In this document: positions 13,008-34,775 of the stretch, piece after piece
Numbering within the stretch: position 1 is the stretch's first letter
Layout: the number at the start of each line of letters is the position of its first letter
Assembly: GCF_003054265.1 (NCBI RefSeq)
Contig: NZ_QBKT01000006.1
Coordinates: 62,001-126,000 of the forward strand
DNA: 64,000 bases
Reading direction: 5' to 3'
Source of the DNA: Kordia periserrulae
Lineage (GTDB): Bacteria; Bacteroidota; Bacteroidia; Flavobacteriales; Flavobacteriaceae
Position numbers and translations under genes: made by a program
Notes under the pieces: generated by a model
Seen by the model: only the letters and a program-made list of their open reading frames with translations
What the model was told of the DNA's origin: nothing
The model's database searches: none

Positions 13008-13619
13008 TTATTCGTTGTTGTACTTTTTTATTTTTCCTGGATTTCCTACGACTACGGCAAAGTCGGGAACATCTTTTATAATGACAGCACCTGCGCCAAT
13101 GGTTGCCCATTTTCCAATGTTGATATTTGGAATGACAATGGCACCAGCGCCAATGTGAGCGCCTTCTTCTATGTGTACATTTCCTGTAATGGTGGCATTG
13201 GGAGAAATGTGTACATAATCGCCAATAACACAGTCGTGCTCTATAACGGCTGCTGTATTGATGATGGCATGTTTTCCGATAGTCGTATCAGCATTAATAT
13301 TAACTCCATTCATCACAACTGTACCTTTTCCAATAGTTGCGGTTGGAGAAATGATGGCAGCTTGGTGAATGAGTGTGGTGAATTCGTTTTTTATTTTTTT
13401 ACTGATGACTTTTCGAACTCTGTTGTTTCCAATGCTGATGACAAATTTATGTTCAGGATAGTTTGCCATTTTTTCAGACGTCACAATAGGAACTTCATGC
13501 AGAAATTCACTTTTTGGATTGTCGTCAATAAAAGCTTCTACCACCGTATTGGTGCTTGTTGCCACATCTTTGACTACTTTTCCATGACCGCTGGCACCAA
13601 ATAGACAAATTTTACTCAT
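13008..13619 (-). CDS. PglD/NeuD-like sugar O/N-acetyltransferase
   Basis: 203 residues. The N-terminal Rossmann part has GASGHGKV at 8-15. From about residue 85 there is a left-handed beta-helix of hexapeptide repeats (ATIGKGT, TTIGKHA, CVIGDYV). H128 in the EHDC segment sits where PglD has its catalytic base (H125 in Campylobacter). It would acetylate the 4-amino group to give UDP-diNAc-bacillosamine or an isomer, using acetyl-CoA. The gene overlaps the upstream PglC-like gene by 8 bp and ends 3 bp before the aminotransferase. Confidence 0.88.
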
Positions 13620-14217
13620 TTCCTGTAAATTTTACGGTAGTTGCCTGATTTTCTGTGTTGATATCTTCCGAGCGAACTACTTTTATAATGGTTTTGAATA
13701 TGATTTTTAGATCGAGTAGAAAGCTTAGGTTTTCTACATACCATACATCGTATTCAAATTTCTTTTTCCAACTGATGGCGTTTCTTCCATTGACTTGCGC
13801 CCAACCTGTAATACCAGGTTTTACATGGTGTCGCTTTTTTTGCGTTTCGTTGTATAAAGGTAAATATTCTGGCAATAATGGTCTTGGTCCTATTAAACTC
13901 ATGTCGCCTTTGAGTACATTCAACAATTGTGGAATTTCGTCTAAGGAAGTTTTTCTCACAAACACGCCTACTTTTGTCAAACGATCAGCATCAGGAAGCA
14001 ATTCACCATCTGCACCTTTTTTATCGTTCATGGTTTTGAATTTGATGACTTGGAAGATTTTTTCATCTTTTCCAGGTCGCTTTTGGAAGAAAAACGGTTT
14101 TCCTTGATTGTTAATCATCAATAAAATGAGCACAATAAAAAATATCGGACTTAGTAGAATAAATCCTATGAGTGCTAGTATGAAGTCAATGACTCTTTTT
14201 AAAAAGTGACGATACAT
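13612..14217 (-). CDS. PglC-like monotopic phosphoglycosyl transferase
   Basis: 201 residues, the size of the small monotopic class. One N-terminal re-entrant/membrane helix (about 11-33) is followed by FFFQKRPGK at 42-50 and the catalytic pair D93-E94 in [11 protein letters not shown], the same numbering as in Campylobacter Pgl[12 protein letters not shown] and [14 protein letters not shown] follow. It transfers a sugar-1-phosphate, here probably diNAc-bacillosamine phosphate, to undecaprenyl phosphate at the inner membrane. It is the second initiating enzyme of the window, distinct from the WcaJ-like one at 6007. The C-terminus has about 20 polar residues of unclear role. Confidence 0.9.
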
Positions 14218-19562: not shown

Positions 19563-20753
19563 TTATGCGGTTTGCGGCGTATTATTTGGTAACATAATAT
19601 ATTTTACGGCAATGTATAGTAGAATTGCTGCAAGAACATTTAAAATTAATCCTCCTGAAAGTAAGCTTGTTATGAATACTATGATGATAAGATTTCGCTT
19701 TAAAGAGTTGCTACCATTTAAGTAACTGGATACGATGTATAAGTAGTATATGATTCCTGCAAAGCCCATGAAAATGTATAAGTCTATGAATTCAAATTCT
19801 ACTTTGAATGTATTGAAGTCAATGCCGCCAAATATGTAGTTGAGAAATGACCAATTTTCATCAATATAGTCCATGGCTTTCACTAAAAGTTGATCTCTGT
19901 ATGAAAATAATGTAGATACCAATCCGCTTTCTTCATAAATATTTTTCCAAAAAGGAGATTTGCTAAGTACTAGTTGTATAAAGGAGTCTTTTACAAAAAG
20001 AAATATGACAAAGAGTACCGGCAGCGCAATTCGGATTATTTTTTTGAATCGATTATAGTGAATTAAGTGCATGATGCCTAGCAATAACAGGAATAGTATT
20101 ATTTTCTTTTGTCCTAGACAGAGCGAACATGTTATGAAAAAAAGAAGTTTATAGAACGATGTTTTGTTTTTTTCTGATATCCAAAAGTAGTAGTTTACAA
20201 TAATAGCAATGATGTACATATAGCTAGCTTCTCCAGGCTTGGAGAAAAAACCTGAAACACCAAATCGGGTTGTATACTCGTACGAGCGGAATGTTTCTAC
20301 ATGAAAAAAGTATCCTACTAGTAAGGCTATGGTATTTAGATAAAGGAAAATTTCGAAGTAGCGATATATTTTTTTGTAAGTGTGTTCTTTTAATAACAGG
20401 GTTTTAACAAAAAGGATGAATATTAAAAGGTATAGGTATCTATTAAAAAAGTAGATGTTTCCTATAGAGATGTGCATTTTAAAATCATACGGTGTTTCCT
20501 TCAGTAAAAATTGACTTATAATGAACGACAGTGCGAAAAAAATGATGAACCACAATGTTTTCAATGGCTTTTTAAAATACACTACAATCATTACAATCAT
20601 AAATGCCTCAAAAATTAATTTGACCATTCCTGAGTATCTGTAAAAAGAGTTGGGCGTTAGTTTAAAAGCTATACTCGTGATGAAATCACTTATAAAGAAT
20701 CCCATCAAAAAAACAATAATGATGCTGTCTATGTTTTTTTTTATGAAATTCAT
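19563..20753 (-). CDS. Wzy-like polytopic membrane protein (no B-copy counterpart)
   Basis: 396 residues with about ten membrane helices and few conserved charged loops. Size, topology and position in a glycan locus suggest an O-antigen/capsule polymerase-like protein; Wzy sequences are too diverse to confirm this by eye. A periplasmic loop near residues 155-175 (FRSYEYTTRFGVSGFFSKPG) contains the R/G-rich pattern often seen in polymerases. The gene overlaps the preceding polymerase gene by 4 bp (ATGA), so translation is probably coupled. It is the last gene of cassette A. Confidence 0.65.
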   Translation of the reverse strand: MNFIKKNIDSIIIVFLMGFFISDFITSIAFKLTPNSFYRYSGMVKLIFEAFMIVMIVVYFKKPLKTLWFIIFFALSFIISQFLLKETPYDFKMHISIGNIYFFNRYLYLLIFILFVKTLLLKEHTYKKIYRYFEIFLYLNTIALLVGYFFHVETFRSYEYTTRFGVSGFFSKPGEASYMYIIAIIVNYYFWISEKNKTSFYKLLFFITCSLCLGQKKIILFLLLLGIMHLIHYNRFKKIIRIALPVLFVIFLFVKDSFIQLVLSKSPFWKNIYEESGLVSTLFSYRDQLLVKAMDYIDENWSFLNYIFGGIDFNTFKVEFEFIDLYIFMGFAGIIYYLYIVSSYLNGSNSLKRNLIIIVFITSLLSGGLILNVLAAILLYIAVKYIMLPNNTPQTA

Positions 20754-22105
20754 GGGCGTAATTTAATTCTGAAATTTTTTTGTAAAAACACCCAAGTTAT
20801 CACAAAGAAGAAAAATCCGTATCCCAGTAATGACCTTGCCAAACTTGCTTGCGATAAATAGTACGCAAATATGAAACAGAAAATAATAAAAATGATATTG
20901 ATATTATTTTTTTCAAGTCTATTCAAAAATGCATCGAGTCCGCTTATAAAGAAGCCTAAAATAATATTTCCTATAAAGAAACCATAATAGCCAAATGCTC
21001 CATAAAAATCAATGATACTGTTAATAGCTAGCGAGCCTTCTTTTTCATTTCTTGAAAAGTAATTGAATAAGACTTTACTATCGGGATATAACTCATAGTT
21101 GAATATTTTACTAAACATTCCTATGTTGGTAATGGTATAGTGATCTTCTACCGAAGGGAAGTAATGTACGTAGCAAAATGCTGGTATGGATAAACGACCA
21201 AATACACGTGTTAGCACGACTTCAGTTAGCGTACTGACTCCTTCAAAAACACTGTTAAATCTGTACGTTGTTGCCGAGTAGTAAAGTAATAATAGCAACG
21301 AGAATAATGATAACCCAATCAATATAGCACGACGGCGAAGTTTTCTTTTTTCTTGAGGTGTTCGCACACGTTTTTTCTTGATGGTGATATACTTTTTAAA
21401 CACGAATGCTGAGAGAAATAAAGACAGTAAAAATAGTATTAATGGCCGTTTTTGAAATAAAAGCAATATTAAGATAAAAGATACTGTAAATAGTCCGATG
21501 AAAAGCATTCTAGCTGAAAGTGTTTTCTTTTTCATCATCAAATACAGTGACACCATGGTTAAAAACGGCAATAGATTATAAGTTATGACAACATATAAGT
21601 AATTGGACGTAATTCCCCTTCGCGATTCTAATAAAGCAACAGGTTGCCGTCCTATAAGTCCGTCAAATAAACCTGAAATTAATACATTCCGCTTTATAAT
21701 TAAATAAACTAATAAAAAGAGAAAAATACAGAGCAACATAAAGTAAAAGTTTACTTTACTGAGGTTGTTTTTTATTGGGTTTTTTATGCGAAAATGGTTG
21801 ATACATTCTACACGTCTATACATCAGCACCAAACCAAATACATACGAATAGAGTACTAACAATAATCCTCCTACGGCGAGCATTTGTGTCCTAAAGACAT
21901 CTTGGTTGGTAATCAATTCCAATTTAAAGGTCCAAAATGTTCTTCCTGCATACATTCGCATAAAAGGAAACATTAAAATTCCGATAATAGAAAAAATACA
22001 AGTTGCTATGAAGAAAATACCAAAAATATTCCATTTAAAAATCATCTTTCTAAATAGAATGATATGAAACAGCAAGACAAAAATAAGTATGTATGAAGCC
22101 GTCAT
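20750..22105 (-). CDS. Oligosaccharide repeat-unit polymerase-like protein (cassette A)
   Basis: 451 residues with about 11 membrane helices. Conserved loops include GLIGRQPVALLESRRG near 158-173, LLLFQKRPLILF near 213-224, and NSIIDFYGAFGYYGFF near 367-382. It would join undecaprenyl-linked repeat units at the periplasmic face in the Wzx/Wzy route. A clear paralogue (440 residues) is at 33409-34731: both start M-x-x-SYILI-VLLFHIILFRKMIF and end IKLRP. The start codon follows the ligase stop with no gap. Confidence 0.8.
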   Translation of the reverse strand: MTASYILIFVLLFHIILFRKMIFKWNIFGIFFIATCIFSIIGILMFPFMRMYAGRTFWTFKLELITNQDVFRTQMLAVGGLLLVLYSYVFGLVLMYRRVECINHFRIKNPIKNNLSKVNFYFMLLCIFLFLLVYLIIKRNVLISGLFDGLIGRQPVALLESRRGITSNYLYVVITYNLLPFLTMVSLYLMMKKKTLSARMLFIGLFTVSFILILLLFQKRPLILFLLSLFLSAFVFKKYITIKKKRVRTPQEKRKLRRRAILIGLSLFSLLLLLYYSATTYRFNSVFEGVSTLTEVVLTRVFGRLSIPAFCYVHYFPSVEDHYTITNIGMFSKIFNYELYPDSKVLFNYFSRNEKEGSLAINSIIDFYGAFGYYGFFIGNIILGFFISGLDAFLNRLEKNNINIIFIIFCFIFAYYLSQASLARSLLGYGFFFFVITWVFLQKNFRIKLRP

Positions 22106-23341
22106 TTATTCTTTTTGGTATTGATAGTATAGTAAATAATTAAATGTCGCAAAGAATGTAATTCCCCACTGCCTGCTTAAAATATTTTCGGTAAAGCAAC
22201 AAACCATGATGATTATGGTGAAGCAAAAATAAATATAATTATTTGTTTTGATGGCATGTGTCAGCGAATACCCAAAAACGATTAAAAAAAGTCCTAAACC
22301 GACGATCCCAAATCGCATGAGGTAATCCAAATATTGGTTATGAACATTGCTTCGTATTTGAATATTGTTTTTTCCGAATTCTGCATGCAATGCTTTTTTT
22401 ACGTCTCCAGTTCCTGTACCAAAAAGCCAATTTTCTTTTATTATAGGCATAGCAGCGCTCCACATACGAGCTCTAGTATCTACTTCTGAACCGTCGCCTT
22501 CTTGCAATGCCATTATTCTGTCTGTAATTCGGCTAACGGTTAAATTTAGATGCTGTGTTGCAAACCAGCCAGCCGCTCCCATTAAAAAGATAGAAAAGGC
22601 TAATAGTGTATATAGTTTTCTTTTGATGAGAAAGTACATCAAAGAGCATACAATGAGTATTATATTTAAAATAATTGCTGTTTTAGCAACCATTTGCAAT
22701 AGAAATAGCGACTGAAACGCAATGAGTAGCAATAATAAGATGATGGTGTAATATTTTTTTGCGCGACGTATATAATCGAGGATAATTATATGAGCAAACA
22801 TGATATACATACCAAAGTACGCATTGTGCATTTCAAGAAGTTTTGTCAACTCTGCGCCTGTATATCTGTACGAAAAAAACAGTTCTACATCAAGTGGAAA
22901 AATATCGCTTTTGTAAAAGAAGCGATAGAGCGTGTGCAGTTCAAAGGTGACTATAAAGCAAAAAACCGCAAACACATAAAACTTTAAGAGCAGTCCAAGA
23001 CGTTTTACTTTGTATACCGAATAAAACAATGGAAATAGTACAAACGTAATTTGTCGTGTAATTGCATTAAAACCTTTGGAGTAGTTGTCGGTATACAGCA
23101 TTCCCACAATATTCAATCCGTACAAAGCTATTAATAGCCAAAAATATGGCGTTGTTGTAAAGCGTTGTTTTTTATGTTCACTTCTAAAAAAAATGATTCC
23201 TTGAATCATCATCAAGGAAAAGATGAAAATAGGATTAATTTTATCTAGCGTAAACGTAGCTACTACTCCCAAAAGAAGCATAAAAACAACGTCAATATTG
23301 TTTTTTTCAAGGAATTGCGTAGCGTATGTTTTCAATTGCAT
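22106..23341 (-). CDS. O-antigen ligase/polymerase family protein (Wzy_C type)
   Basis: 411 residues with 11-12 membrane helices and one large periplasmic loop (about 262-336). That loop carries the marks of the Wzy_C family: R291 in TRARMW, FGTGTGDV near 307-314, and NVHNQYLDYL with H334. Such proteins either polymerise repeat units or ligate the finished glycan to a lipid or protein acceptor. It sits without gaps between the cassette A glycosyltransferase and polymerase genes. The plus-strand cassette B has no equivalent, making this the main gene-content difference between the two copies. Confidence 0.85.
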   Translation of the reverse strand: MQLKTYATQFLEKNNIDVVFMLLLGVVATFTLDKINPIFIFSLMMIQGIIFFRSEHKKQRFTTTPYFWLLIALYGLNIVGMLYTDNYSKGFNAITRQITFVLFPLFYSVYKVKRLGLLLKFYVFAVFCFIVTFELHTLYRFFYKSDIFPLDVELFFSYRYTGAELTKLLEMHNAYFGMYIMFAHIIILDYIRRAKKYYTIILLLLLIAFQSLFLLQMVAKTAIILNIILIVCSLMYFLIKRKLYTLLAFSIFLMGAAGWFATQHLNLTVSRITDRIMALQEGDGSEVDTRARMWSAAMPIIKENWLFGTGTGDVKKALHAEFGKNNIQIRSNVHNQYLDYLMRFGIVGLGLFLIVFGYSLTHAIKTNNYIYFCFTIIIMVCCFTENILSRQWGITFFATFNYLLYYQYQKE

Positions 23342-24460
23342 CTAGTTGGCTAAAAAAATTTCTAATTCTTCATAGTCTTGATCGCCAAAATACGTATTTT
23401 GAGATAAGGAAGAAAAATTATTTTGCAAACGGTCACTATTTGAAGATAAGTAGCTTACCGCATCTTGTATAGCATTTGGCTCTTTGTAATTTATAGAAAT
23501 TCCAATGCCTAAATCCATCACAATTTCTTCCAAATACGTTTCTTTGCTACAAATTAACGGCACTTTGTAATACATGCATTCGTAAAGTTTATTTGGCAAT
23601 GCTAATCGATTATTTAGCGACACTTGATCAATATCGTACACTAAGTAAATGATGTCTATCGAATTGTAAATACGTTGTGCATCGGTAAATGTATTATACG
23701 GTCCGAAATAGGTAATATTGGTATGCTTGGCAGCGTATTCTTCCACAATGTGCTGATAGTGCCCTTTACCGTGAATGTGAATATCTACTTCAGGATGATC
23801 TTTGTAAGTTTCGAATAGTTTTACATATTCGTCTTTACGCAACAACAGTCCAACAATTCCTATGACGGTTTTGCCACCTTGCTTTTTTTGAATGTTTGGA
23901 TCATTTTTTTGTTCTACTGAAAGTAGTTTGTTTTCTAACACAAATACTTCTTTCTTAAAGAATTTTTCAAAATGATAGGTATAATATTTTTTAGAAGTAA
24001 CAATGAGTTTATCAATGTACTTTTTGTAAAGATATTTTTCGAGCGCGCGCATGCGTTTGCTCACAAAACTATCGCTGAATACAAATTCTCGCAAATCTGA
24101 AATTTCAATAGTCAATTTTGGCTTATGCTTTCTACGTCCAAATTTAAAGTTTGCCATTAAGTACAGAATAATGACATCAATATTATTGACCAAAGCGACA
24201 TCAAATTTTGCCTTTTTTATGATTTTTCTAATTTTTTTAATCGCTTTTATATATACCCAAATACGTTTGAACGGTTGTGAAGCATTGGGTACGCCGCCTA
24301 AATTATGAATGGTTACATTTTTTTCGATAGAATCGTTTAGGTTTGCCAGCGTTTCTCTGTGAAAAAAGACAAGACTTACCTCATGTTTTCTCGCCAAGAA
24401 ATTAATCTGTTTTACAAAACGTGGATTTGGCTGATGCGATATAAAAAATAGTATGTTCAT
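23342..24460 (-). CDS. GT4-like glycosyltransferase (cassette A)
   Basis: 372 residues with a GT-B fold: N-terminal MNILFFISHQPNPRFVKQ, central IGIVGLLLRKDEY near 200-212, and the donor-site segment RLALPNKLYECMYYKVPLIC near 285-304, whose glutamate is the conserved GT4 E. The donor sugar is unknown. It lies between the flippase (15 bp) and the ligase-family gene (0 bp). The paralogue at 32266-33408 shares long identical stretches, such as LIVTSKKYY and HIHGKGHYQHIVE. Confidence 0.85.
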   Translation of the reverse strand: MNILFFISHQPNPRFVKQINFLARKHEVSLVFFHRETLANLNDSIEKNVTIHNLGGVPNASQPFKRIWVYIKAIKKIRKIIKKAKFDVALVNNIDVIILYLMANFKFGRRKHKPKLTIEISDLREFVFSDSFVSKRMRALEKYLYKKYIDKLIVTSKKYYTYHFEKFFKKEVFVLENKLLSVEQKNDPNIQKKQGGKTVIGIVGLLLRKDEYVKLFETYKDHPEVDIHIHGKGHYQHIVEEYAAKHTNITYFGPYNTFTDAQRIYNSIDIIYLVYDIDQVSLNNRLALPNKLYECMYYKVPLICSKETYLEEIVMDLGIGISINYKEPNAIQDAVSYLSSNSDRLQNNFSSLSQNTYFGDQDYEELEIFLAN

Positions 24461-24475
24461 AACGTGTATTCGCTG

Positions 24476-25981
24476 TTATTTTCCTCTTTTTAATAAGACA
24501 TTGATGGTTTCGCTAAGGAATTTTACTTTGCTAAAAAATAAAACACCTGCGTATATAATAGTACTTCCAATGACACAAATAATACATGCAATCACATTTG
24601 GATAGAATGCATTGACGTAATAGTTGATTGCAAACAGAATTATTCCCACAATAATCAAAACTTCCATTCGGTAATATGTATAACTGTTAAAGTCTTTCCG
24701 ACACCAAATTATGGTGGTAATTCCCAAAGCTGCAAATCCAATCATGAGTGAAAACGACAGGGCAAATAAGTTTCCGTAACTATCGCGCAAAGCATAAAAT
24801 AGAATGACGTGACAGGCAATTGCAATTAAAATACTATACAAGTTAAACGGTTTGAAAAATTTAATTTCAATAATTCCTTTTAATCCGTGAAATATAGAAT
24901 ACGGAATAAGTCCGAACGCCAAAATCTTAAAAGCATAAATTACATTTTCAATACGTTCTGCGTCAGAAATCCAATATTCAATAAGTACGTTGAGCCAATT
25001 GTACAATATAATAACCAACAAAAATGTAGAGTATACAATGGTTCCTGTCATTAAATTAGTGGCTATTTTTTGTCGCTCGGCAGAATTGTTATTTCCAACA
25101 ATTACTGATGATAATTTCGAAATTGGTTGCAATACAATCAGTACAATTCTTGCTAAAGTCAATGCTAATAAAAAGGCGGTAATGTCTTCTTTTCCATCAA
25201 CAATCATAAAAGCACTTACGGTAAGTAAAAACATGTCTGAAAATGTGATAGCCGAGCGTGGCAAACCGTAACGAATAAACTCTTTTCCGTAAGCTTTTAT
25301 TTTTTCGAAAGACGGATAATTATACAGTTTTTGTTGCATAATGATATAGCCCATTAACAAAAGCTGTACAATACTCATAACACTCAACGCTATATACAAA
25401 AAGTTTGTCAATACAACTTTGGTCACGACACCATTGATAATTTCACCAGCCGTTGTCGTCGTTGCCATGTATTTAATGACCAAAAGCAAAATTAAACTTG
25501 CATTCAGCATGTTGATTACGTTGTAAAAAAATACTTTTCGTTGTACCAAAAAATACGGTTGCACTAAATAACTCAAGTGAATAATGGCTATGTACCAAAC
25601 GGTTAGTAAAAAGTACGGTTTAAAATTGTTTGTACCTTCTACCTCGTCGTATACTAATTGTCCTAAAGTGGAACCAAAACCGAAATATAAAATCGCCAAT
25701 ACAATGCAACTACATATCCAAATAGTGAACGAAATGGCAAAATAGGTTCGTATTTTGTCTTTGTCATCTTTATTGATACTTGCATATCGAATTAACGCTT
25801 GTGAAGTTCCTAACTGACTCAAATTGGTAAATGTAGGCACGACGCGTCGCATAACTAAAAACACACTCAATGCCAATGCCGAAAGTAAATACTCAGCTTC
25901 TTTGATAAGCCAAAAATTCAGTAATACATTGAAAACTGCAAAACCTGTACTATAAAATAAGTCTTTACCGAGTTTGTTCAT
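24476..25981 (-). CDS. Wzx-type polysaccharide flippase (cassette A)
   Basis: 501 residues with 12-14 membrane helices, in the MATE/oligosaccharide-flippase (RfbX-like) superfamily. It would move undecaprenyl-linked repeat units across the inner membrane. The ATG at 25981 is chosen rather than the in-frame TTG at 25987, because the paralogue at 30764 starts with the same MNKL and the TTG adds only two residues. Shared early blocks are NFWLIKEAEY, PTF-N--QLGTSQAL-R and GLPRA-ITFSDMFLLTV. It is the first gene of cassette A, with a promoter-like box about 35-42 bp upstream. Confidence 0.88.
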   Translation of the reverse strand: MNKLGKDLFYSTGFAVFNVLLNFWLIKEAEYLLSALALSVFLVMRRVVPTFTNLSQLGTSQALIRYASINKDDKDKIRTYFAISFTIWICSCIVLAILYFGFGSTLGQLVYDEVEGTNNFKPYFLLTVWYIAIIHLSYLVQPYFLVQRKVFFYNVINMLNASLILLLVIKYMATTTTAGEIINGVVTKVVLTNFLYIALSVMSIVQLLLMGYIIMQQKLYNYPSFEKIKAYGKEFIRYGLPRSAITFSDMFLLTVSAFMIVDGKEDITAFLLALTLARIVLIVLQPISKLSSVIVGNNNSAERQKIATNLMTGTIVYSTFLLVIILYNWLNVLIEYWISDAERIENVIYAFKILAFGLIPYSIFHGLKGIIEIKFFKPFNLYSILIAIACHVILFYALRDSYGNLFALSFSLMIGFAALGITTIIWCRKDFNSYTYYRMEVLIIVGIILFAINYYVNAFYPNVIACIICVIGSTIIYAGVLFFSKVKFLSETINVLLKRGK

Positions 25982-26015
25982 TACCAACGGAGATTAATTA
26001 GGTGTTTTCCAACTG

Positions 26016-26045
26016 CAAAACTAATTTATTAAAACAAAACCACAA
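26016..26045 (-). promoter_or_regulatory. Putative promoter for cassette A
   Basis: Minus-strand TAGTTTTG (26023 to 26016) fits TAnnTTTG, and TTG (26045-26043) lies 19 bp upstream. The -33 element falls inside one arm of the terminator hairpin of the preceding transcript. Confidence 0.45.
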
Positions 26046-26073
26046 TTATTAAGTGGATTAATAATTGTGGTTT
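26037..26073 (-). terminator. Rho-independent terminator of the 28913-26102 transcript
   Basis: A perfect 14-bp inverted repeat (26037-26050 with 26060-26073) around a 9-nt loop is followed on the minus strand by a T-rich run (TTTTGTTTTAAT). It lies 29 bp after the stop of the lipoprotein gene. Confidence 0.8.
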
Positions 26074-26101
26074 GTCTGTTTAGTTTGAGGATTTCCTCTA
26101 A

Positions 26102-26962
26102 TTATTCTGGAAATTCCTCGTATTCTATATAAATTCTTCTTGAGATAGAACCATTTCCTGGATGTATCTCAATTGGGTAATCATGTTCATTATATATAAT
26201 TGTATATTCACCTAAAAGGACATTATTTGCATTCCTAAATTCAATAATATTATTGTTAAAAGATTGTATTTCGTCCAAACTAGAAAAGATTTCTAAATCA
26301 ACATACGTATCATTTGGCGTAAGGGCATTAGGTAACTTTAAAAATAGATTTACACGTGGATCTATATATTTAAAAGGATGGTTTTTATCGTCATAAATAT
26401 ATTTTGTCGAATAATTAACGTTTGTCGAAATATACTCTTTTTCTAGAAGATTGCCATTAGCATCATAAGTATATTGTTTTTCATGTGTTTCATTCCACAA
26501 TGAAGTATTGTAATCTGTAAACCATAAACTGTTTACGCTTGACGTCAGTTGTGTTTGATTATTGTATGTATAATCTCTTGTATTTTCATACGAACTATTC
26601 CATGAAAAAGGAAGTATTAAGTTTCTTGTTGCTATACCATTTTCAAAAATAAACCCTAAATCGTCATTGAAATTTCTCAAAACAGAAATCAGATTGTTTG
26701 AGCTATCATAATTGAATTCGTAAACTTCTTGAGGATTTGTGTTATCAACATCAAATTCTTCTATTTTGGTAACTCTATTGCCTTCATATTCATAAACCCA
26801 ATACGAATCCATTTTTGAAATTTTTGAAGGTCTTAAAATAGTGTTTACTGGTTCTTGTACAGGTGTTTCTGTGTTTTGTTCTTCTTGTGCTACAATATCA
26901 TCATTTGACGAACATGATACTATAAAAGCAAAGAGAAAACATAATGCAATAAGTTTTTTCAT
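26102..26962 (-). CDS. Lipoprotein with YD-like repeats
   Basis: 286 residues. A lipoprotein signal peptide ends at C17 (FAFIVSC), followed by SSNDD; acidic residues just after the Cys resemble the surface-export signal of Bacteroidota lipoproteins. The mature part has six or more short units of the type Y-x-Y-D/E-x-x-N-x-L/V (YEYEGNRVTKIEEF, YTYDANGNLLEKEY, YIYDDKNHPFKYI), like the YD repeats of Rhs proteins, so a small beta-wrap is likely. The gene is 10 bp after the second heparinase-family gene and is followed by a strong terminator. The function is unknown; it may bind the glycan made here. Confidence 0.75.
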   Translation of the reverse strand: MKKLIALCFLFAFIVSCSSNDDIVAQEEQNTETPVQEPVNTILRPSKISKMDSYWVYEYEGNRVTKIEEFDVDNTNPQEVYEFNYDSSNNLISVLRNFNDDLGFIFENGIATRNLILPFSWNSSYENTRDYTYNNQTQLTSSVNSLWFTDYNTSLWNETHEKQYTYDANGNLLEKEYISTNVNYSTKYIYDDKNHPFKYIDPRVNLFLKLPNALTPNDTYVDLEIFSSLDEIQSFNNNIIEFRNANNVLLGEYTIIYNEHDYPIEIHPGNGSISRRIYIEYEEFPE

Positions 26963-26972
26963 CTATAAATTT

Positions 26973-28913
26973 TTAATTATTTTCTTTTTCAATGGTAAAT
27001 TGTAGGGAACTTTTTCCCTTTATTTCAGTTTCCAAAACCACTTTTTTAGCTGTAATTTTAGAGCCATAATTATAACTTAACGTGTAATTTTCAATACGAA
27101 TGGTTGTAGCATTGTCAACCGTTATTTTTGAGGAGGCTTTGCTATTTCTTATAAATATAATATTCTCATGAATTTCTAACGCAATTTTCTCGCTAAAATG
27201 TAAGTTTCTCGTGATTTTGCATGTAGATTTACAATCAATCACATCTGTACAAATCATTTTGAAATCATTTTTATCTATTTGAAAAGTACGTTGGTGCATT
27301 ACCGCATCTTCCAATCGCTGGTAGCCTGAATGTTTTCCGGAAATGATTACTTTTTCTTCGGAATGTTCAACAGAAACCTCAAAAGGGTGTGCTACATCAC
27401 TAATTCCCCAATTGCCAACCATTGGCGCAATTTCTTCATCATCTACCTGTAAACCATTGTGATAAGCGGTAGATTTCATTTTGGTTTTGAGAGCCAAATC
27501 GCCAGTGTAGGTGTAGCAACCTGCATCAACAATAATGTTTTCATTATCCAACATCAACTCAAAACTAAACAAATCGTTGTGTCCGTGTCCGCCGCGACCA
27601 TTCATTCCTACTTCGCCAACATCGGTAATAAAATAGTTTTGCGCATCTTTTACCGTAACAAATCCGCCATCTTTATAATGATATGACGCAAAATCATCTT
27701 GTGAAATTGAACTTACATTTTCCATAGCTTTTGTTCCGAAAATTTCATACGCTGAATGGTATTTTTCGTTGCTAATATTTAAGGTTTCATCTTGAAAAAA
27801 CAGACTTGCCAATTGCAACATGTTTGCATGATTGTTCAAGGGTACTTGATCGTTTTGAAATACGGAAGCACTGTCGTTATCGCCAATAATCGGCGTTAAA
27901 GAATCGGGTTTTGTAACATCACGCGTGAATTTGCAGGAGTTTTTTAGCACTTTCAGTGTGTTTTCTTGAATTTTCAATCCTGCACGCTGCATCACCAAGA
28001 AAGAAATAAGGTAAAACTCTACAACCAATCGGTGATACGGAATGGATTTTTCAAAATTGACACCATCTGGTATAAATTGTAAATGGAATTCCTTCTCTGT
28101 GCGTTTTACCGCATAGGAATACCACGATTTTGCTTCCGAATAGAACTCTTTAAAAACACTTCCTAGCAATAATAACGCAGTTAAGTTAGCCGAATAATGA
28201 TTTCCACGAACATCAGTATATTCTACATTTCGCCACAAAAAGATACCGTGAAGCAATAAAATTTCATTCAACAAATTCACAACCTCATCGGTATGATTGG
28301 CTTCTAGTAAAATTTCTCGCAACTGAATTAAATTAATCGTTCGCACCGAAACTTCCATCGGATACCAATTCACCGCAAAAGCAATAGGATTGTTGACTTT
28401 CCAGTCTGTCAATATTGCATGAATGTAGGCTAATTGTGCTTCGTTATTCTCCAATTGATATGCACGCGCCACCGGAATTAAGAAGCTTAAACGCGATAAC
28501 TCCCACGGAAATTTTACGTCATATTCTTTGGTTTTGTCTTTATGATAAAACGAATACCCTTTGAAGTAGTTGTTTTTCCATTCGTGATGTACACGCCAAT
28601 CAGTATGCCATGAAATGGGTTGTGTAAATTGATAGTCAACATCAAAAATTGCAATGTTTCCCTTCATAATGCAATTCGCAGCTGCAATGGTTTGTTGCTG
28701 TAATTTTTGAGGAATATCAGATGATTTAAAATCTGTTGCGTACAACAGACTTTTTGCTTTCCAAGTTGCTTTTGGTTTGTGAATGGTTTGATGAATTTTT
28801 GGTTCAATTTTTTGCCAAAACTTAGTCTTAGCGTACATTTTCAATTTTACCAATTGCACGAAACGATACCAAACCACAGGAAGCGGTTTTGAAAGAATGG
28901 TTTTTATATTCAT
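26973..28913 (-). CDS. Heparinase II/III-family protein (second, different subtype)
   Basis: 646 residues. The alpha-toroid N-terminal domain has RGNH at 236-239, Y293-H294 (IPYHR) and GDND at 344-347. The C-terminal heparinase II/III domain has GHGHND with H443 and H445 and STAYHNGL with H485. These positions fit an uronic-acid polysaccharide lyase fold. No Sec signal peptide is visible (MNIKTILSKPLPVVWYRF). It is clearly a different subtype from the protein at 15462; only the general fold and His/Asn spacing are shared. A promoter-like box precedes it, and it is co-transcribed with the YD-repeat lipoprotein. Confidence 0.82.
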   Translation of the reverse strand: MNIKTILSKPLPVVWYRFVQLVKLKMYAKTKFWQKIEPKIHQTIHKPKATWKAKSLLYATDFKSSDIPQKLQQQTIAAANCIMKGNIAIFDVDYQFTQPISWHTDWRVHHEWKNNYFKGYSFYHKDKTKEYDVKFPWELSRLSFLIPVARAYQLENNEAQLAYIHAILTDWKVNNPIAFAVNWYPMEVSVRTINLIQLREILLEANHTDEVVNLLNEILLLHGIFLWRNVEYTDVRGNHYSANLTALLLLGSVFKEFYSEAKSWYSYAVKRTEKEFHLQFIPDGVNFEKSIPYHRLVVEFYLISFLVMQRAGLKIQENTLKVLKNSCKFTRDVTKPDSLTPIIGDNDSASVFQNDQVPLNNHANMLQLASLFFQDETLNISNEKYHSAYEIFGTKAMENVSSISQDDFASYHYKDGGFVTVKDAQNYFITDVGEVGMNGRGGHGHNDLFSFELMLDNENIIVDAGCYTYTGDLALKTKMKSTAYHNGLQVDDEEIAPMVGNWGISDVAHPFEVSVEHSEEKVIISGKHSGYQRLEDAVMHQRTFQIDKNDFKMICTDVIDCKSTCKITRNLHFSEKIALEIHENIIFIRNSKASSKITVDNATTIRIENYTLSYNYGSKITAKKVVLETEIKGKSSLQFTIEKENN

Positions 28914-28949
28914 AACAAAATAACTGTCAGGCCTTCTAAAAATTTACTG

Positions 28950-28957
28950 CAAATGTA
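28950..28957 (-). promoter_or_regulatory. Putative -7 element before the second heparinase gene
   Basis: Minus-strand TACATTTG (28957 to 28950) fits TAnnTTTG, giving a 5' leader of about 30 nt. The -33 region has only CTG at 19 bp, so the promoter is moderate at best. Confidence 0.35.
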
Positions 28958-29023
28958 TTGTTTTGATTCTTTATAGCAGCCGTTATGATTGGAAAAAGAC
29001 TCTTGGAATTAGACGTTGATTTT

Positions 29024-30526
29024 TTAACTAGACGAATTCGGAGTGTTGTGCAACCATTCCTTGTCTTCGTCTTGTTCCAATTCCCACACATTATTGTAGC
29101 ATTTAAAATCTTTCGGCGCTGTAGCACGATCTAAATAATCGGGTAGTTTTCTTGGATTTAATATTAGCATTTTAGACACTTGTAAATCGACATGTTCTTT
29201 ATCTGGTCCGTTGTAAATGAGCAATCTTCCAAAACGACAATTGATGTTGATGAAGTAGCTTTTTTTGTGAATACAAATTTCGCCATGTGTCAAATCGACG
29301 CCCGTTAAATGTGTATTGGCACAATCGTTTAACAAAATGCCTGGCTTGACTCTTTCGGGAGGAAGATTTGGGTTTTTTCGATTAACAGAACCAAGTCCAG
29401 AAGCAAAAAATCCGCCGATGATATGCAACCCCGAAGATTGCGTTGCCGAAACAGTTTCTCCATGAACACTCGCTCCCGCAAACCAACAATTGATAAGTGT
29501 TGTATCTCTAATTCGCCAGCGCAATCCTTTGGTTTTTTGATTGCTTTCTAAAAAGAGGGCTCTTTTTGCTCGTGCATTGAGTGTGAAAACTATATTTTCA
29601 GCCGTCCATTTTGCCACAGCAGGACAATCCAAACGGTTGCCTTTTGTATCGGTATGCGAAGTTTCTTCAGACAGTAAAGACACAATATTAGCGTCGTACG
29701 CATTCACAAAATTAGGATTGTTTTCTTCTTCTTTCGGAATGAATAATTCGGGAACGTCAATTGTTAAGTTTTTTAATCCGCCACCGGCATTGTTACTACC
29801 ATTGGCTACATATCTAAAAAAGGCTCCTTTTTCGCTGCTTTGCGGTAAAATACTTTTTTTCGAATCCTTAGGCGATGTAAAATTGAAATCGTTGTATCGG
29901 TGAAAAATAAGCAAACGTGTTCCATGTGCAGACGTTCCCATATTTCCTTCGCCTTCAAAGACTACTCCGTAGCGAATTGTACTGATGAACGTATGAAAAT
30001 AATAACGCCCAGAAGGTATAAAAATCGTTTTTCCAGGTCGTGTGTAGGCTCTGTTATTAAAAGTATGAATTGATGGAACAAATTTCGGTGGATATACATA
30101 AGCGCCTTTTGCATCTCTTTGTCGGATAGCCACCTCAAATTGCGCATATTTTAGGGCTGCATTTATGGCTGGAGACGCATCTGAGCCACTTGGGCGCGCT
30201 CCAAACCAACGCAAGTTGAGTTTTCCTCTGTCCCATTGACGCGTCCAACGTCCTGTTGGATTTGTTTTTGATTTGCACACCATTCCGTCATAATTGGCAT
30301 TGTATCCAATTTTTAGCATGTCTTCAAAAGAAGCATACGGACTTTTCGGATTGCGCGTATTTGGTGCAATATCTTGGTAAAAAGGTTCGAGTGAAGATTT
30401 CGCATCAAAGATAAAAAAACCGCCGCCGCCATCTTCGTCATTCAGATAGCCTTGTACATATACCATTTCTTTATGTGTGGGTGAAGGATAATTGTATAAT
30501 TCTTCTAAACTTTCTACAACGTTCAT
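29024..30526 (-). CDS. Pectate-lyase-like right-handed beta-helix protein
   Basis: 500 residues. After an N-terminal cap comes LNLRWFGARPSGSDASPAINAALKYA (about 104-129, a typical start of the pectate-lyase superfamily beta-helix), then GKTIFIPSGRYYF near 163-175 and repeated beta rungs to about residue 470. Proteins of this type are polysaccharide lyases, hydrolases or phage-type glycan-binding proteins. No signal peptide is visible. Catalytic residues cannot be assigned by eye. It is divergent from the plus-strand flippase at 30764, and 110 bp with a promoter-like box separate it from the downstream heparinase gene. Confidence 0.75.
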   Translation of the reverse strand: MNVVESLEELYNYPSPTHKEMVYVQGYLNDEDGGGGFFIFDAKSSLEPFYQDIAPNTRNPKSPYASFEDMLKIGYNANYDGMVCKSKTNPTGRWTRQWDRGKLNLRWFGARPSGSDASPAINAALKYAQFEVAIRQRDAKGAYVYPPKFVPSIHTFNNRAYTRPGKTIFIPSGRYYFHTFISTIRYGVVFEGEGNMGTSAHGTRLLIFHRYNDFNFTSPKDSKKSILPQSSEKGAFFRYVANGSNNAGGGLKNLTIDVPELFIPKEEENNPNFVNAYDANIVSLLSEETSHTDTKGNRLDCPAVAKWTAENIVFTLNARAKRALFLESNQKTKGLRWRIRDTTLINCWFAGASVHGETVSATQSSGLHIIGGFFASGLGSVNRKNPNLPPERVKPGILLNDCANTHLTGVDLTHGEICIHKKSYFININCRFGRLLIYNGPDKEHVDLQVSKMLILNPRKLPDYLDRATAPKDFKCYNNVWELEQDEDKEWLHNTPNSSS

Positions 30527-30763
30527 TGATGTGCATTTTAGATTTTCTAAAATACTATAAATATTTGAGAGGAAAGAAAAGGTGTGTTTTGAGTCATATG
30601 CAGATTAAAAATGTGTTTGTTTTATTTAGGATTGACAAGGTGGTTTTCTTTGTTGTTCGCTTCTCTTTAAGACCTTAGGAATTTATTGTTTTGAATTGCG
30701 TTAAAAGAGTCCTATATTTATTTTTTATATAGAATATTTCAGAAAGTACGGAGAAAACAAGTT

Positions 30764-32218
30764 ATGAATAAACTTAGTAAAGATGTTGTTGTTAGTATTG
30801 TTTTTTCCTTTTTGAATATTCTATTTAATTTTTGGCTAATTAAAGAAGCTGAGTATACACTTTCCGTAGTTCACTTGGGCATTTTGATGTATATACGACG
30901 TATTGCTCCTACGTTTTCTAATATTCTACAATTAGGCACTTCTCAAGCGCTTGTACGATTTACAAGTATTGAAAAAGACGATATCCAGAAAGTAAAAATT
31001 TACTATACAATTTCTACTTTCGTATGGGTTTTGGTTTCTGTGTTATTGGTCATTTTATTTTGGCTGTTTCATGATTTTTTGAGTTTGTTGTTTTTTCCAG
31101 ATAGCGAAAATAGCGTGGCGTATTTGAAGATTACATTTATCTACATTAGTATTTTACACCTTAGCCATTTTACGCTTCCTTACTTTTTGAATTTGAGAAA
31201 AGTAATTACCTATAATATGATTGTATTGTTGATAGCCAGTTTAAGTATCTTGATTTCTTTTAAGTTTCTTGGTTCTTCCGCGGATGTTTTAACAGTGCTT
31301 ACCTATTCTTTAGTGATTCTTTTTACCGTGTTGATATTAACATTTATGTACGTTTGTTTTAAGATAAAACTCTATATTTTACCTAGTTTGTATGCTATAA
31401 AAAAAGAAGGCAAGCGTTTTATTATGTATGGATTACCAAGAGCATTTATTACGTTTTCAGATATGTTTTTACTTACTGTTGGCGCTATGTTGATACAAGG
31501 CGAAGAAGAAATTGTAGCCTCCTTTTTAATAGGAATTGTATTGTCAAGAACAATATTGATTGTGTTACAACCTATTTCCTTACTTTCAGCCGTTATTTCG
31601 GGACATCACAATACAGAAGAGGCTCATAAAAAAGTTTTGAATTTGATAGTTGGCGGAACTATTTACACAACAACAATTACTACTATACTTTTTTATAATT
31701 GGATTGATATTTTACTTCCTTTTTGGTTGAAGAATGAAGACACCATCGAAACTGTTATGTATGTTTTTAAAATACTAGCTATTGGGATTATTCCCTATAC
31801 TATATTTCAGTCCTTAAAAGGGATTATTGATATTAAGTATTTTAAACCATTAAATTTATATTCTTTATTCATTGCTGTAGCAGGCCATATTGTATTCTTT
31901 TATATTTTGAATATTTGGTGCAACACATTACAATCGCTTTCTATATCGTTATCAATAAGTTTTATTATTTTGGGGATTTTTGCATTGTATTGGAATCGAA
32001 AATATTTATACTCTCAAAGCTACTTTAATCTTTTTTACTTATTAATATTTAATCTTTTTGTATTTGTGATAAATTTCAAAATACATGATGTATATCCTTC
32101 ATGGATAGGTTTTTTAATAAGTGTTACGGTATCAATTATTTTGTTTTTAATATTTTGTCTAACTATAAAAAGTCCCTTTTTGAAAGAAGCTTTGCATGTT
32201 TTTAATAAACGGCATTAA
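30764..32218 (+). CDS. Wzx-type polysaccharide flippase (cassette B)
   Basis: 484 residues with 12-14 membrane helices, in the same flippase family as the gene at 24476 and aligning with it end to end (MNKLSKDVV versus MNKLGKDLF, then shared NFWLIKEAEY, QLGTSQAL, FKILA-G-IPY-IF--LKGII). A GGAG ribosome-binding-type site lies about 9 nt before the ATG. It would flip a second, related undecaprenyl-linked repeat unit. It is the first gene of cassette B, transcribed away from the beta-helix gene across a 237-bp intergenic region in which no TAnnTTTG box was found for either gene. Confidence 0.88.
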   Translation: MNKLSKDVVVSIVFSFLNILFNFWLIKEAEYTLSVVHLGILMYIRRIAPTFSNILQLGTSQALVRFTSIEKDDIQKVKIYYTISTFVWVLVSVLLVILFWLFHDFLSLLFFPDSENSVAYLKITFIYISILHLSHFTLPYFLNLRKVITYNMIVLLIASLSILISFKFLGSSADVLTVLTYSLVILFTVLILTFMYVCFKIKLYILPSLYAIKKEGKRFIMYGLPRAFITFSDMFLLTVGAMLIQGEEEIVASFLIGIVLSRTILIVLQPISLLSAVISGHHNTEEAHKKVLNLIVGGTIYTTTITTILFYNWIDILLPFWLKNEDTIETVMYVFKILAIGIIPYTIFQSLKGIIDIKYFKPLNLYSLFIAVAGHIVFFYILNIWCNTLQSLSISLSISFIILGIFALYWNRKYLYSQSYFNLFYLLIFNLFVFVINFKIHDVYPSWIGFLISVTVSIILFLIFCLTIKSPFLKEALHVFNKRH

Positions 32219-32265
32219 CATACATTTTAAAAAATACTTATAAAAGCTAAAGTCAGCTTTACTAA

Positions 32266-33408
32266 ATGAAGCATATTTTATTTTTTTTATCACATCAGCC
32301 AGACCCACGTTTTGTTCAGCAAATTAACCACTTGGCGAAAAACCACACGGTAACTTTGGTTTGTTTTCACAGAGAAACCTTAGCTTCTTTTGACAAGGCT
32401 ATTTCCAAAAACGTTGTGCTGCATCATTTAGGCACTCTTCCCAATGCATCTCAAGCTCTTAAGCGTATTTGGATTTATATAAAAACTTCTCGAAAAATTC
32501 GAAAAATTCTCTCTAATACCACTTTTGATATCATCATCGTAAACAACATTGATATTGTTATCTTGTATCTTTTGGCAAACTTTGGATTTTTTCGTCGAAA
32601 AAAAGAAAAAACACTTGCGATAGAAATTTCTGATTTACGTGAATTTGTCTTTGGCAAGCGTTTTACAAGTACTTGTATGCGAGCATTGGAGCGATTTATC
32701 TATACTAGCTATATTGACAAGTTAATTGTAACCTCCAAGAAATACTATTCGTATCATTTTGAAAAATTCTTTAAGAAAGATGTCTTTGTGTTAGAAAACA
32801 AACTACTTTCTACATCTCAAAAGTTTGATGCTACACTTACAAGAGCAAAAAACGAAAAAACGGTTATAGGAATTGTTGGGTTATTGCTTCGAAAAGAAGA
32901 ATATATACAGCTTTTTGAAACCTATAAAAATCATCCTGATGTTGAAATTCACATTCATGGAAAAGGACATTATCAGCATATTGTAGAAGACTATGCTGCT
33001 AAGTATCAAAACATTATTTATTTTGGAGCTTATAATGTATTCTCTGACGCACAAAAAATTTATTATTCTATTGACATCATGTATTTGGTATATGATAGCA
33101 ATCAGGTTTCATTGAACAACCGATTGGCATTACCCAACAAACTGTATGAGTGCATGTACTATAAAGTTCCTATCATCTGTAGTCATAATACATACTTGGC
33201 AGAAATTGTGACAGATTTGGGTATTGGAACTTTCATTGATTATAAAGAAGAAAATGCTATAGAAAATGCCGTCAATCACATTACACAAAATAACGATATG
33301 TTGGTACAGAACTTATCCAAATTAGATAAAGATTCCTATTTTGGCGACAATAGCTACAACGCATTCGAGTTATTTTTAACAGAGGAAAAATCATCTAAAA
33401 AAGAATAA
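32266..33408 (+). CDS. GT4-like glycosyltransferase (cassette B)
   Basis: 380 residues, a GT-B-fold paralogue of the protein at 23342. Shared blocks include SHQP-PRFV-QIN-LA, EISDLREFVF, VFVLENKLLS, IGIVGLLLRK-EY and RLALPNKLYECMYYKVP. Differences cluster in the N-terminal acceptor half and at the C-terminus, where this copy has an extra tail ending SSKKE. A similar acceptor and the same or a related donor are inferred. The stop codon is immediately followed by the polymerase ATG (0 bp). Confidence 0.86.
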   Translation: MKHILFFLSHQPDPRFVQQINHLAKNHTVTLVCFHRETLASFDKAISKNVVLHHLGTLPNASQALKRIWIYIKTSRKIRKILSNTTFDIIIVNNIDIVILYLLANFGFFRRKKEKTLAIEISDLREFVFGKRFTSTCMRALERFIYTSYIDKLIVTSKKYYSYHFEKFFKKDVFVLENKLLSTSQKFDATLTRAKNEKTVIGIVGLLLRKEEYIQLFETYKNHPDVEIHIHGKGHYQHIVEDYAAKYQNIIYFGAYNVFSDAQKIYYSIDIMYLVYDSNQVSLNNRLALPNKLYECMYYKVPIICSHNTYLAEIVTDLGIGTFIDYKEENAIENAVNHITQNNDMLVQNLSKLDKDSYFGDNSYNAFELFLTEEKSSKKE

Positions 33409-34731
33409 ATGGCAACTTCATATATCTTAATATGTGTCCTTCTTTTTCATATAATCCTCTTTAGGAAGATGATTTTTAATTGGAATATTTTTGGCGTATT
33501 CTTTCTATCAACATGTATCTTTTCTATTGCTGGAATTTTAATGTTTCCGTTGATGCGGTCGTACGCAAATGAAACATTTATCACTTTTAAGTTATACCTC
33601 ATCACAGAACAAGATATATTTCTAACACAACTTTTAGCGGTAGGAGGATTGCTTATTGCCTTATACGCATACGTTATAGGTATGATAGTTATGTACAAAC
33701 GTGTGGAATGTATCAATCATTTTAGAATAAGAGAACCTATTAAAAATAACCTCAATAAAGTAAACTTTTATTTCGTTTTAATTTGTATTTCCGTGTTTCT
33801 TCTAGGGTATATTTTTTTAAAGCGAGATGTATTTATTTCAGGAATTTTTGATGGTCTTATAGGGCGTCAACCGATTGCATTATTAGAATCTCGGTACGGA
33901 ATTATGTCTAATTATCTTTATGTAATTATTCTATACAATTTACTCCCTTTTTTTACCGTAGTTGCCTTGTATTTAATGATGAAAGAAAAAACCTTGTCTA
34001 GTAAATTGGTATTTTCTGGATTGTTTATTACATCGTTCACGCTCATTTTATTATTGTTTCAAAAGCGTCCGTTAATTATCTTTTTATTGGCACTATTTCT
34101 TGCATTATTTGTTTTTCAAAAGTTTTTGAAACGTAAAAAAGTTAGAAGAAGGTTTATCATTATTGGCTCTTCATTGTTTGTTTTATTATTGATTTTGTAT
34201 TATTCTGCTACTACCTATGAGTTTACAAGTATATTTGAAGGCGTTTCTAAGTTAACTGAGGTTGTACTGACAAGAATTTTTGGTCGATTATCCTTACCCG
34301 CTTTCTGTTATGTACATTATTTCCCTGCGGTAGAAGACCACTATGGAGTTACTAACATCGGAAAATTAAGTACCATCTTTCGTTATGAAATATTTTTGGA
34401 CTCTAAAGTTGTGTATGCTCATTTTACAAAAACAAAACTAGACGGTTCAATGGCAATCAATAGTATTATTGATTTTTATGCTGCTTTTGGGTATTATGGT
34501 TTTTTTATCGGAAATATTTTTATGGGACTCCTTATTAGTGTTTTTGATGCCTTTTTAAATAGACTTGAAAAAAATGGTATCAACCTTATTTTTATCGTTT
34601 TCTGTTTTGTTTTTGGCTATTATTTATCGCAAGCAAGTTTGGCAAGATCGTTAATGGGTTACGGACTATTTTTCTTTATGTTGGCATGGATGTTTTTACA
34701 AAAAGGATTTAAGATAAAATTGCGCCCGTAA
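33409..34731 (+). CDS. Oligosaccharide repeat-unit polymerase-like protein (cassette B)
   Basis: 440 residues with about 11 membrane helices, a paralogue of the protein at 20750. GLIGRQPIALLESRYG, LLLFQKRPLIIF, EVVLTR-FGRLS-PAFCYVHYFP and NSIIDFYAAFGYYGFF are all shared. Copy B is 11 residues shorter, mostly in a basic cytoplasmic loop near residues 240-250. No ligase-family gene accompanies it. It is the last gene of cassette B and converges with the fusion oxidoreductase at 34798, with a hairpin terminator between them. Confidence 0.82.
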   Translation: MATSYILICVLLFHIILFRKMIFNWNIFGVFFLSTCIFSIAGILMFPLMRSYANETFITFKLYLITEQDIFLTQLLAVGGLLIALYAYVIGMIVMYKRVECINHFRIREPIKNNLNKVNFYFVLICISVFLLGYIFLKRDVFISGIFDGLIGRQPIALLESRYGIMSNYLYVIILYNLLPFFTVVALYLMMKEKTLSSKLVFSGLFITSFTLILLLFQKRPLIIFLLALFLALFVFQKFLKRKKVRRRFIIIGSSLFVLLLILYYSATTYEFTSIFEGVSKLTEVVLTRIFGRLSLPAFCYVHYFPAVEDHYGVTNIGKLSTIFRYEIFLDSKVVYAHFTKTKLDGSMAINSIIDFYAAFGYYGFFIGNIFMGLLISVFDAFLNRLEKNGINLIFIVFCFVFGYYLSQASLARSLMGYGLFFFMLAWMFLQKGFKIKLRP

Positions 34732-34744
34732 TCATATCAATAAA

Positions 34745-34775
34745 AAACGCATCAACCTAAAAGATTGATGCGTTT
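34745..34775 (-). terminator. Rho-independent terminator between convergent operons
   Basis: An 11-bp perfect inverted repeat (34745-34755 with 34765-34775) has a 9-nt loop. The T-run (TTTTTTATTG) follows on the minus strand, so it mainly ends the long operon running from 45225 down to 34798; on the plus strand it is followed by A residues and would be weak. Confidence 0.75.

Follow-up and report, generated by a model that had tools for sequence, protein, structure and literature searches.

Two antiparallel sets of flippase, glycosyltransferase, and polymerase genes in a Kordia polysaccharide locus

Why does one polysaccharide locus carry two sets of flippase (Wzx), glycosyltransferase (GT), and polymerase (Wzy) genes on opposite strands? 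The locus in question lies in a 64,000-nt stretch (hereafter, the window) of contig C6 of the 4.73-Mb genome of Kordia periserrulae, a member of the Flavobacteriaceae. Synteny shows the minus-strand (left) set to be the ancestral, inherited assembly line, and the plus-strand (right) set, WzxB-GT′-Wzy′, was found as a unit in the window's genome alone. Judging from gene content and comparison, we think it probable that this plus trio is an extra late-step module, descended from an older and diverged assembly line of the same kind, that flips and polymerizes a related repeat unit. Our genus sample comprised 11 Kordia genomes, the window's own (G000) and 10 others, including K. aestuariivivens (G005), K. 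algicida OT-1 (G009), and a third relative with this type of locus (G003); G173, from another genus, was the outgroup.

BLASTP bears out the first-pass annotation's account of three full-length paralogous pairs in the same order on opposite strands, all of them in uninterrupted frames. Identity between left and right copies is 222/500 residues (44%) for the flippases, 249/370 (67%) for the GTs, and 320/451 (71%) for the polymerases; at the nucleotide level it is 55%, 69%, and 71%, and in the GT and polymerase arms the DNA itself is repeated in inverted orientation over 522, 594, and 726 nt at 71–72%. The genes of the two sets are as follows.

24476..25981, minus: WzxA, flippase inherited with the locus; 72–85% to the syntenic genes of G009, G005, and G173, 44% to WzxB
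23342..24460, minus: GT, GT4-like glycosyltransferase, ancestral copy; PF00534 Glycos_transf_1; 91/88/80/74% to four orthologs
22106..23341, minus: Wzy_C-domain membrane protein, ligase/polymerase-like; PF04932 at E 6.6e-20; syntenic in G005, G009, G003, and G173
20750..22105, minus: Wzy, oligosaccharide repeat-unit polymerase, ancestral copy; TIGR04370 at 47.0 bits (cut-off 40)
19563..20753, minus: putative second Wzy-like polytopic protein; syntenic in 4 relatives at 51–76%
30764..32218, plus: WzxB, second flippase, of the other old lineage; 61% to the G005 WzxB, 59% to the G003 WzxB
32266..33408, plus: GT′, second glycosyltransferase copy; 67% to the left GT; PF00534 at 37.1 bits
33409..34731, plus: Wzy′, second polymerase copy; 71% to the left Wzy; TIGR04370 at 35.7 bits, below the cut-off of 40

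The further picture of two matching cassettes needs qualification. The left set is not contiguous, because the Wzy_C-domain gene (22106-23341) sits between GT and polymerase without a right-hand copy, and the flippases are far more diverged than the other pairs and belong to separate lineages. The polytopic protein that follows the left polymerase also lacks a right-hand counterpart. The left Wzy_C protein has no real similarity to the right GT, and at E 1e-5 its G005 ortholog had no match among the other window proteins. Pfam and NCBIfam profile scans were confined to 23 window proteins. Among these, WzxB reached 27.6 bits against PF01943, just below the cut-off of 28.2, and WzxA and the 19563-20753 protein matched no family at E 0.001; the assignment of the pair as flippases comes from their mutual homology, length, and context. 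Searches of solved structures by sequence returned none for the GT profile and none for WzxA, Rfam gave no match at gathering scores, and PADLOC gave none for the 5 proteins submitted.

Both sets look old and functional, since synonymous change between left and right is saturated and the ratio of nonsynonymous to synonymous divergence (dN/dS) is low. The proportion of synonymous differences is 0.72–0.74, and dN/dS, rough at such saturation, is 0.065 for GT, 0.08 for Wzy, and 0.17 for Wzx, which suggests purifying selection. The right copies have changed more at conserved positions: summed over segments, 41 of the 245 positions that do not vary among the other five GTs are altered in the right GT, and the right Wzy is altered at 19 of 226 such positions. 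The left GT and the left Wzy have one change of this kind each, counted where the five sequences other than that left copy agree. A long identical block, RLALPNKLYECMYYKVP, had been noted in the two GTs. It is invariant in all six aligned GT sequences, one from another genus, and is therefore uninformative on recent copying. The stretch LNNRLALPNKLYECMYYKVP, which we take to be a donor-side motif of GT4 enzymes, is likewise identical in six of six, and this suggests that both GT copies use the same donor class.

Synteny of the two sets

The left order of GT, Wzy_C, Wzy, Wzy-like, and oxidoreductase 2 is kept in G005, G009, and G003, with a varying flippase. In G173 the order runs oxidoreductase 1, heparinase-like, WzxA, GT, Wzy_C, Wzy, Wzy-like, oxidoreductase 2. 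The synteny search that the first-pass annotation proposed thus finds the left set, flippase excepted, in three Kordia and in another genus, and on these grounds we regard it as ancestral. Two copies of GT occur in only one of the 11 genus genomes, the window's (G002 and G007 gave only weak matches at 22–24%), and among 40 relatives searched, these 11 included, one has two copies of Wzy.

The neighbors on the other side vary: oxidoreductase 1 is missing from G005, and in G009 the lipoprotein and heparinase-like genes are followed by unrelated DNA. In G003, oxidoreductase 1 and the pectate-lyase-like gene adjoin across a 347-bp gap with no insert, and this gap corresponds to the site of the plus set. 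Insertion of the trio between these two genes is supported because G003 has both neighbors without the insert, and G005 and G173 also lack the trio. A DNA search of the G003 gap for a remnant of the trio gave only 13- to 16-nt matches (E 0.76), and two AT-rich matches of 26–30 residues in a tblastx search against only the right set (E 5e-4) were taken as chance. A possible remnant of the start of the Wzy-like gene after the Wzy′ stop aligned too weakly to claim. Insertion by a transposon was considered and set aside, as no transposase family was matched among the 23 scanned proteins and the window has no tRNA; no phage family was matched among those proteins either.

Between the arms lie a lipoprotein, a heparinase-like, and a pectate-lyase-like gene. 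These and the other features around the two sets are listed here.

25965..26075, minus: WzxA upstream element; 16-bp perfect hairpin, promoter-like sequence TTG-N19-TAGTTTTG, leader, and first 17 nt of the gene
26102..26962, minus: lipoprotein with a weak YD-repeat match (TIGR01643, 21.4 bits); same-place orthologs in G005 (63%) and G009 (46%)
26973..28913, minus: heparinase II/III-like protein (PF07940, PF16889); orthologs adjoin the set in G005, G009, G003, and G173
29024..30526, minus: pectate-lyase-like protein (PF12708 at 25.1 bits, below the cut-off of 27); orthologs in G005 (72%) and G003 (two: 47%, 53%)
30527..30763, no strand: divergent intergenic region, presumed start of the plus set, read from sequence
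34745..34775, terminator-like on minus: hairpin of 14 pairs plus T-run between the convergent ends of Wzy′ and oxidoreductase 1
34798..36915, minus: oxidoreductase 1, two-domain dehydrogenase/Gfo-Idh, right border of the plus set; G003 94%, G173 91–92%
17376..19490, minus: oxidoreductase 2, two-domain, outer neighbor of the left set; ortholog in 8 of the 10 other Kordia and in G173 (65%)

Oxidoreductase 1 was not found in the G005 and G009 stretches, nor an ortholog of oxidoreductase 2 in those of G006 and G008. The two enzymes share 39% identity, and we rejected the idea that they are copies made with the arms. A sequence resembling the hairpin at 34745-34775 can also be read after the same oxidoreductase gene in G003.

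The wider region extends from ~3 kb to 52 kb and includes sugar-nucleotide genes, two Bac_transf initiating transferases, GTs, Wzx/Wzy-type proteins, the two two-domain oxidoreductases, heparinase-like proteins, and one MBOAT acyltransferase. The initiating enzymes are polyprenyl-phosphate sugar-1-P transferases (PF02397) at 6007-7413 and 13612-14217. The argument that two initiating transferases mean two glycans was dropped, since G005 and G009 have both with a single GT-Wzy set. A candidate chain-length protein (Wzz, or polysaccharide copolymerase) is encoded at 49405-50484 on the minus strand, with a weak PF02706 match (13.4 bits, E 0.098). No Poly_export protein (the OPX/Wza type) was found in or beside the locus, and the genome's sole PF02563 match lies on a different contig, C4; an O-antigen-type product is therefore likelier than a Wza-exported capsule. 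The locus is probably a Wzx/Wzy-dependent polysaccharide region of O-antigen type.

O- and K-antigen loci have conserved flanks and a variable center. The Kordia locus resembles them in that its center is replaced between common flanks, and differs in holding two Wzx-GT-Wzy sets together. The centers differ in the remaining 7 of the 10 other Kordia, including the nearest relative, G010. Comparison of G010 (C9:117444-127994) with window positions 17376-40620 gives 91–99% protein identity outside the center, except for two proteins (74% and 43%), and a center that is unrelated or distant, as expected of replacement between species. The probable chain-length protein at 49405-50484 is 50–74% identical among Kordia (5 of the 7 center-differing stretches, one of them partial), far more variable than the genes that flank it (86–98%), and its variation looks coupled to the type of locus center. 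At the far end of the window, two small lipoprotein-like proteins, 57% identical, are encoded in tandem on the minus strand (61522-61860 and 61877-62215).

Ancestry of the paired genes

The flippases give the clearest answer. WzxA is 72–85% identical to the genes of G009, G005, and G173, WzxB is 61% (G005) and 59% (G003) identical to its counterparts, and A and B types are 43–50% identical to each other. The window's own two flippases share 44–45%, each being nearer to orthologs elsewhere, and the approximately unbiased (AU) test rejects a tree that makes them sisters (p=0.0005). WzxA and WzxB are thus old separate lineages and not a duplication made here, and the first-pass proposal of an inverted duplication of a whole cassette fails on this point. 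The B-type genes have a lower third-position G+C (0.22–0.26) than the A-type genes (0.29–0.33). Both types occur in two of the 11 genus genomes (G000 and G005), B alone in one (G003), A alone in one (G009), and neither in seven. In G003, WzxB occupies the place of WzxA. K. aestuariivivens (C43:217846-222825, L008/L009) has WzxA and WzxB in same-strand tandem, an asparagine-synthase-like gene, and one copy each of GT and Wzy, which makes a second, different two-flippase state in Kordia. A search of 395 sampled family genomes at E 1e-30 revealed no further B-type gene; its three matches were the window's genome, G009, and G173, the latter two A-type.

The GT and polymerase pairs are harder to place. 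The left GT is 74–91% identical to its four orthologs versus 67% to the right copy, and the left Wzy is 81% and 82% identical to its two nearest orthologs, 74% to that of G003, 64% to that of G173, and 73% to the right copy. The right GT is 63–68% identical to the five others aligned (68% to G003, 67% to the left copy), and the right polymerase 60–73%, with the left copy nearest (73%), the other Kordia at 68–71%, and G173 at 60%. According to the first-pass annotation, copies closer to orthologs elsewhere than to each other would speak for independent acquisition. This is what we see for both flippases, for the left GT, and for the left Wzy by its two nearest orthologs; the G003 ortholog of the left Wzy is no closer than the right copy, and that of G173 is further away. 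The right GT and Wzy′ have no clearly closer relative among those found.

In the best GT tree, the right copy groups with G003 (ultrafast bootstrap 85). Sisterhood of the left and right GTs has AU values of 0.06–0.10, and its fully specified version is excluded by the Kishino–Hasegawa (KH) test and expected likelihood weights (ELW) but not by AU; AU does reject (0.004) a position of the right GT basal to the left/G005/G009 group. In the best Wzy tree, the right copy takes that same basal position, and AU rejects nothing, giving sisters 0.12–0.54. When GT and Wzy are joined, left-right sisterhood has an AU value of 0.335. Third-position matches of the right copy exclusive to left, G005, G009, and G003 number 19/8/16/19 in GT and 23/12/22/24 in Wzy, with no left-right excess. 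Exclusive amino-acid matches, in the same order, number 9/0/3/21 in GT and 9/7/4/15 in Wzy and favor G003. Since the trees are indecisive and a left-right third-position excess is absent, a duplication would have to be old; alternatively, a related locus supplied the pair, and GT′ and Wzy′ may have arisen either way. Recent duplication or gene conversion between the arms was rejected on the same third-position counts, although the two window GTs, and no others, share an identical 26-nt block (20–22 of 26 positions in other Kordia).

Searches beyond the genus revealed few relatives. At E 1e-60, GT′ matched 3 of 397 sampled family genomes, namely the window's, G009, and G173 (62%), and among 3 genomes of the genus of G173 only G173 itself matched. 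At E 1e-20, Wzy′ matched the window's genome alone among 395 genomes of the order. When named genomes were scanned with the right polymerase, a search that detects close relatives only, the matches were two Kordia, K. aestuariivivens and K. algicida OT-1. The family searches are samples, and the known carriers G003 and G005 are absent from the GT′ and flippase matches in them.

Control regions and arm geometry

If both sets are functional, how are they expressed? The element upstream of WzxA is 93–98% identical in the three other Kordia of this locus type, with one locus in each (4 of 11 genomes, the window's included); it was not found in the other 7 Kordia, and no recognizable copy precedes the G173 gene. 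The adjoining coding DNA is less conserved, left Wzx and GT being 57–83% identical to those three genomes. In all four genomes the element precedes the first wzx of the left-type set, whichever the flippase lineage, and in G003 it stands before WzxB. It is absent upstream of the window's WzxB. The predicted WzxA frame begins at TTG 25987, and the conserved start is the ATG at 25981. The window contains 21 strict matches to TTG-N17-23-TANNTTTG, which we take to be the promoter consensus, and so the promoter argument rests on conservation and not on the match.

The first-pass annotation had also seen in the inverted arms a route for strand-switch recombination. Such a route is not supported. The longest perfect inverted matches between the arms are 29, 26, and 26 nt, and the arms are ~71% identical. 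Positions 30300-30900 contain no inverted repeats beyond one 14-nt pair at 93%, no invertase-type repeats flank the promoters, and the center faces the same way in G003 and G005. A phase-variable invertible switch was likewise rejected, because near-identical inverted repeats flanking a promoter or the arms were not found. The two sets apparently have separate control regions at their starts, and their relative dose could be set by transcription rather than by inversion.

Function, rivals, and known systems

Several known systems bear on what a second set might do. In the stewartan system of Pantoea stewartii and the amylovoran system of Erwinia amylovora, two distinct flippases per species have been proposed to serve a pair of exopolysaccharides (EPS) whose only difference is one terminal residue of a side branch (Wang et al. 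2012, cited in PMC6436433). The claim that no system of this form had been described was therefore too strong, at least from what that citation conveys. The Kordia locus is similar in having two Wzx-like proteins, which presumably both serve its product. As far as the cited account goes, stewartan and amylovoran double the flippases with a side-branch difference, whereas Kordia also doubles GT and polymerase, in an antiparallel cassette within the main locus. The same source reports that Wzx can be selective for a single terminal sugar, and that O-antigen clusters of Yersinia pseudotuberculosis with the same main chain carry one of two unrelated genes, wzx1 or wzx2 (PMC6436433). The alternation of WzxA and WzxB within Kordia resembles the way in which these wzx genes, along with terminal-sugar genes, differ between clusters. 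The clusters described there have one wzx each, and the window has both types in one genome. A further polymerase can change how repeat units are linked, as described for the phage-encoded WzyPh1 of Acinetobacter baumannii (PMC9241936) and for Wzy-beta of Pseudomonas aeruginosa (PMC4815439). Those polymerases are described as phage-borne or phage-acquired, whereas the Kordia Wzy′ is part of the locus and is accompanied by a flippase and GT of its own. Among the matches listed in a search of open-licence PMC literature, no title or abstract start concerned an antiparallel second Wzx-GT-Wzy set in one locus, and a term search of the main text of a Kordia comparative-genomics paper (PMC7477175) returned no exopolysaccharide, capsul-, lipopolysaccharide, or O-antigen. 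The arrangement is unusual, its parts are known, and two-flippase EPS systems have been proposed before.

Given terminal-residue selectivity of Wzx and a linkage change by an added polymerase, we infer that the plus set builds a related second unit from shared precursors. In this scheme, WzxB would derive from another flippase lineage, and GT′ and Wzy′ from an old duplication or a related locus. Both sets would draw on the same sugar nucleotides and on the same initiating and length-control genes. GT′ would transfer an identical or very similar donor sugar, with the linkage or the acceptor context changed, WzxB would flip the variant unit, and Wzy′ would join it, so that the cell would make two related repeat units. 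A fuller version adds two antiparallel, separately controlled late-step lines with shared precursors, their two related units forming separate chains or mixing in one, and a balance held through two control regions, one of them the conserved hairpin-promoter element specific to this locus type. We offer that version tentatively, as somewhat less probable than its negation.

Several observations weigh against an active second line. Two diverged, apparently functional sets make the first-pass suggestion of two related glycans, or variants of one, a natural one, but for this strain two glycans are a deduction from its genes. Neither the Wzy_C gene nor the second Wzy-like gene has a counterpart in the plus set, which also contains no sugar-pathway gene. 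An asparagine-synthase-like gene precedes GT in G005 and G003, accompanies WzxB there, and has no close relative in the window's genome, where the best match is 37% over residues 1-167 (E 5e-27), compared with 74% over residues 1-614 for the G003 gene. The divergence of GT′ is equal in its N- and C-terminal halves (67% each), which does not single out a change of acceptor, and the right polymerase scores below its family cut-off (35.7 vs 40). Finally, the promoter-like sequence upstream of WzxB, TTG-N19-TATATTTA at 30691-30720, is weak.

In a rival reading, the plus set is a relic of serotype change, left from an earlier or incoming cluster and redundant, without a distinct product. The replacement of locus centers between species, seen even in G010, and the incompleteness of the plus set relative to the left one both fit such a relic; three intact, full-length frames with saturated synonymous change and low dN/dS instead indicate genes long kept by selection, and we consider the relic unlikely. 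We give slightly less credence to a lineage-specific inverted duplication of the resident Wzx-GT-Wzy genes followed by divergence and loss of Wzy_C. The same gene order in both arms, the failure of AU to reject sisterhood of the window GTs and Wzys, separately or joined, the left Wzy as the nearest relative found of Wzy′, and the 26-nt block exclusive to the two GTs all speak for it. Against this, duplication is rejected for the flippases, the third-position excess is absent, exclusive amino-acid matches point to G003, and the best GT tree places the right copy there, with the specified sister tree failing KH and ELW. Recombination of the arms that inverts the center and switches expression appeals to the same inverted homology over 522–726 nt, yet the short perfect matches, the ~71% identity, the lack of noteworthy repeats flanking the promoters, and a center oriented as in G003 and G005 make it very improbable.

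Should the plus set prove to be silent and a relic, the locus would illustrate ordinary turnover of a serotype locus. As an extra late-step module, the reading that we prefer, it would mean that surface-glycan loci can gain a second such module rather than swap the first. If both sets work, this Kordia would provide a natural test of flippase and polymerase selectivity under one precursor supply, with single-set relatives as controls.

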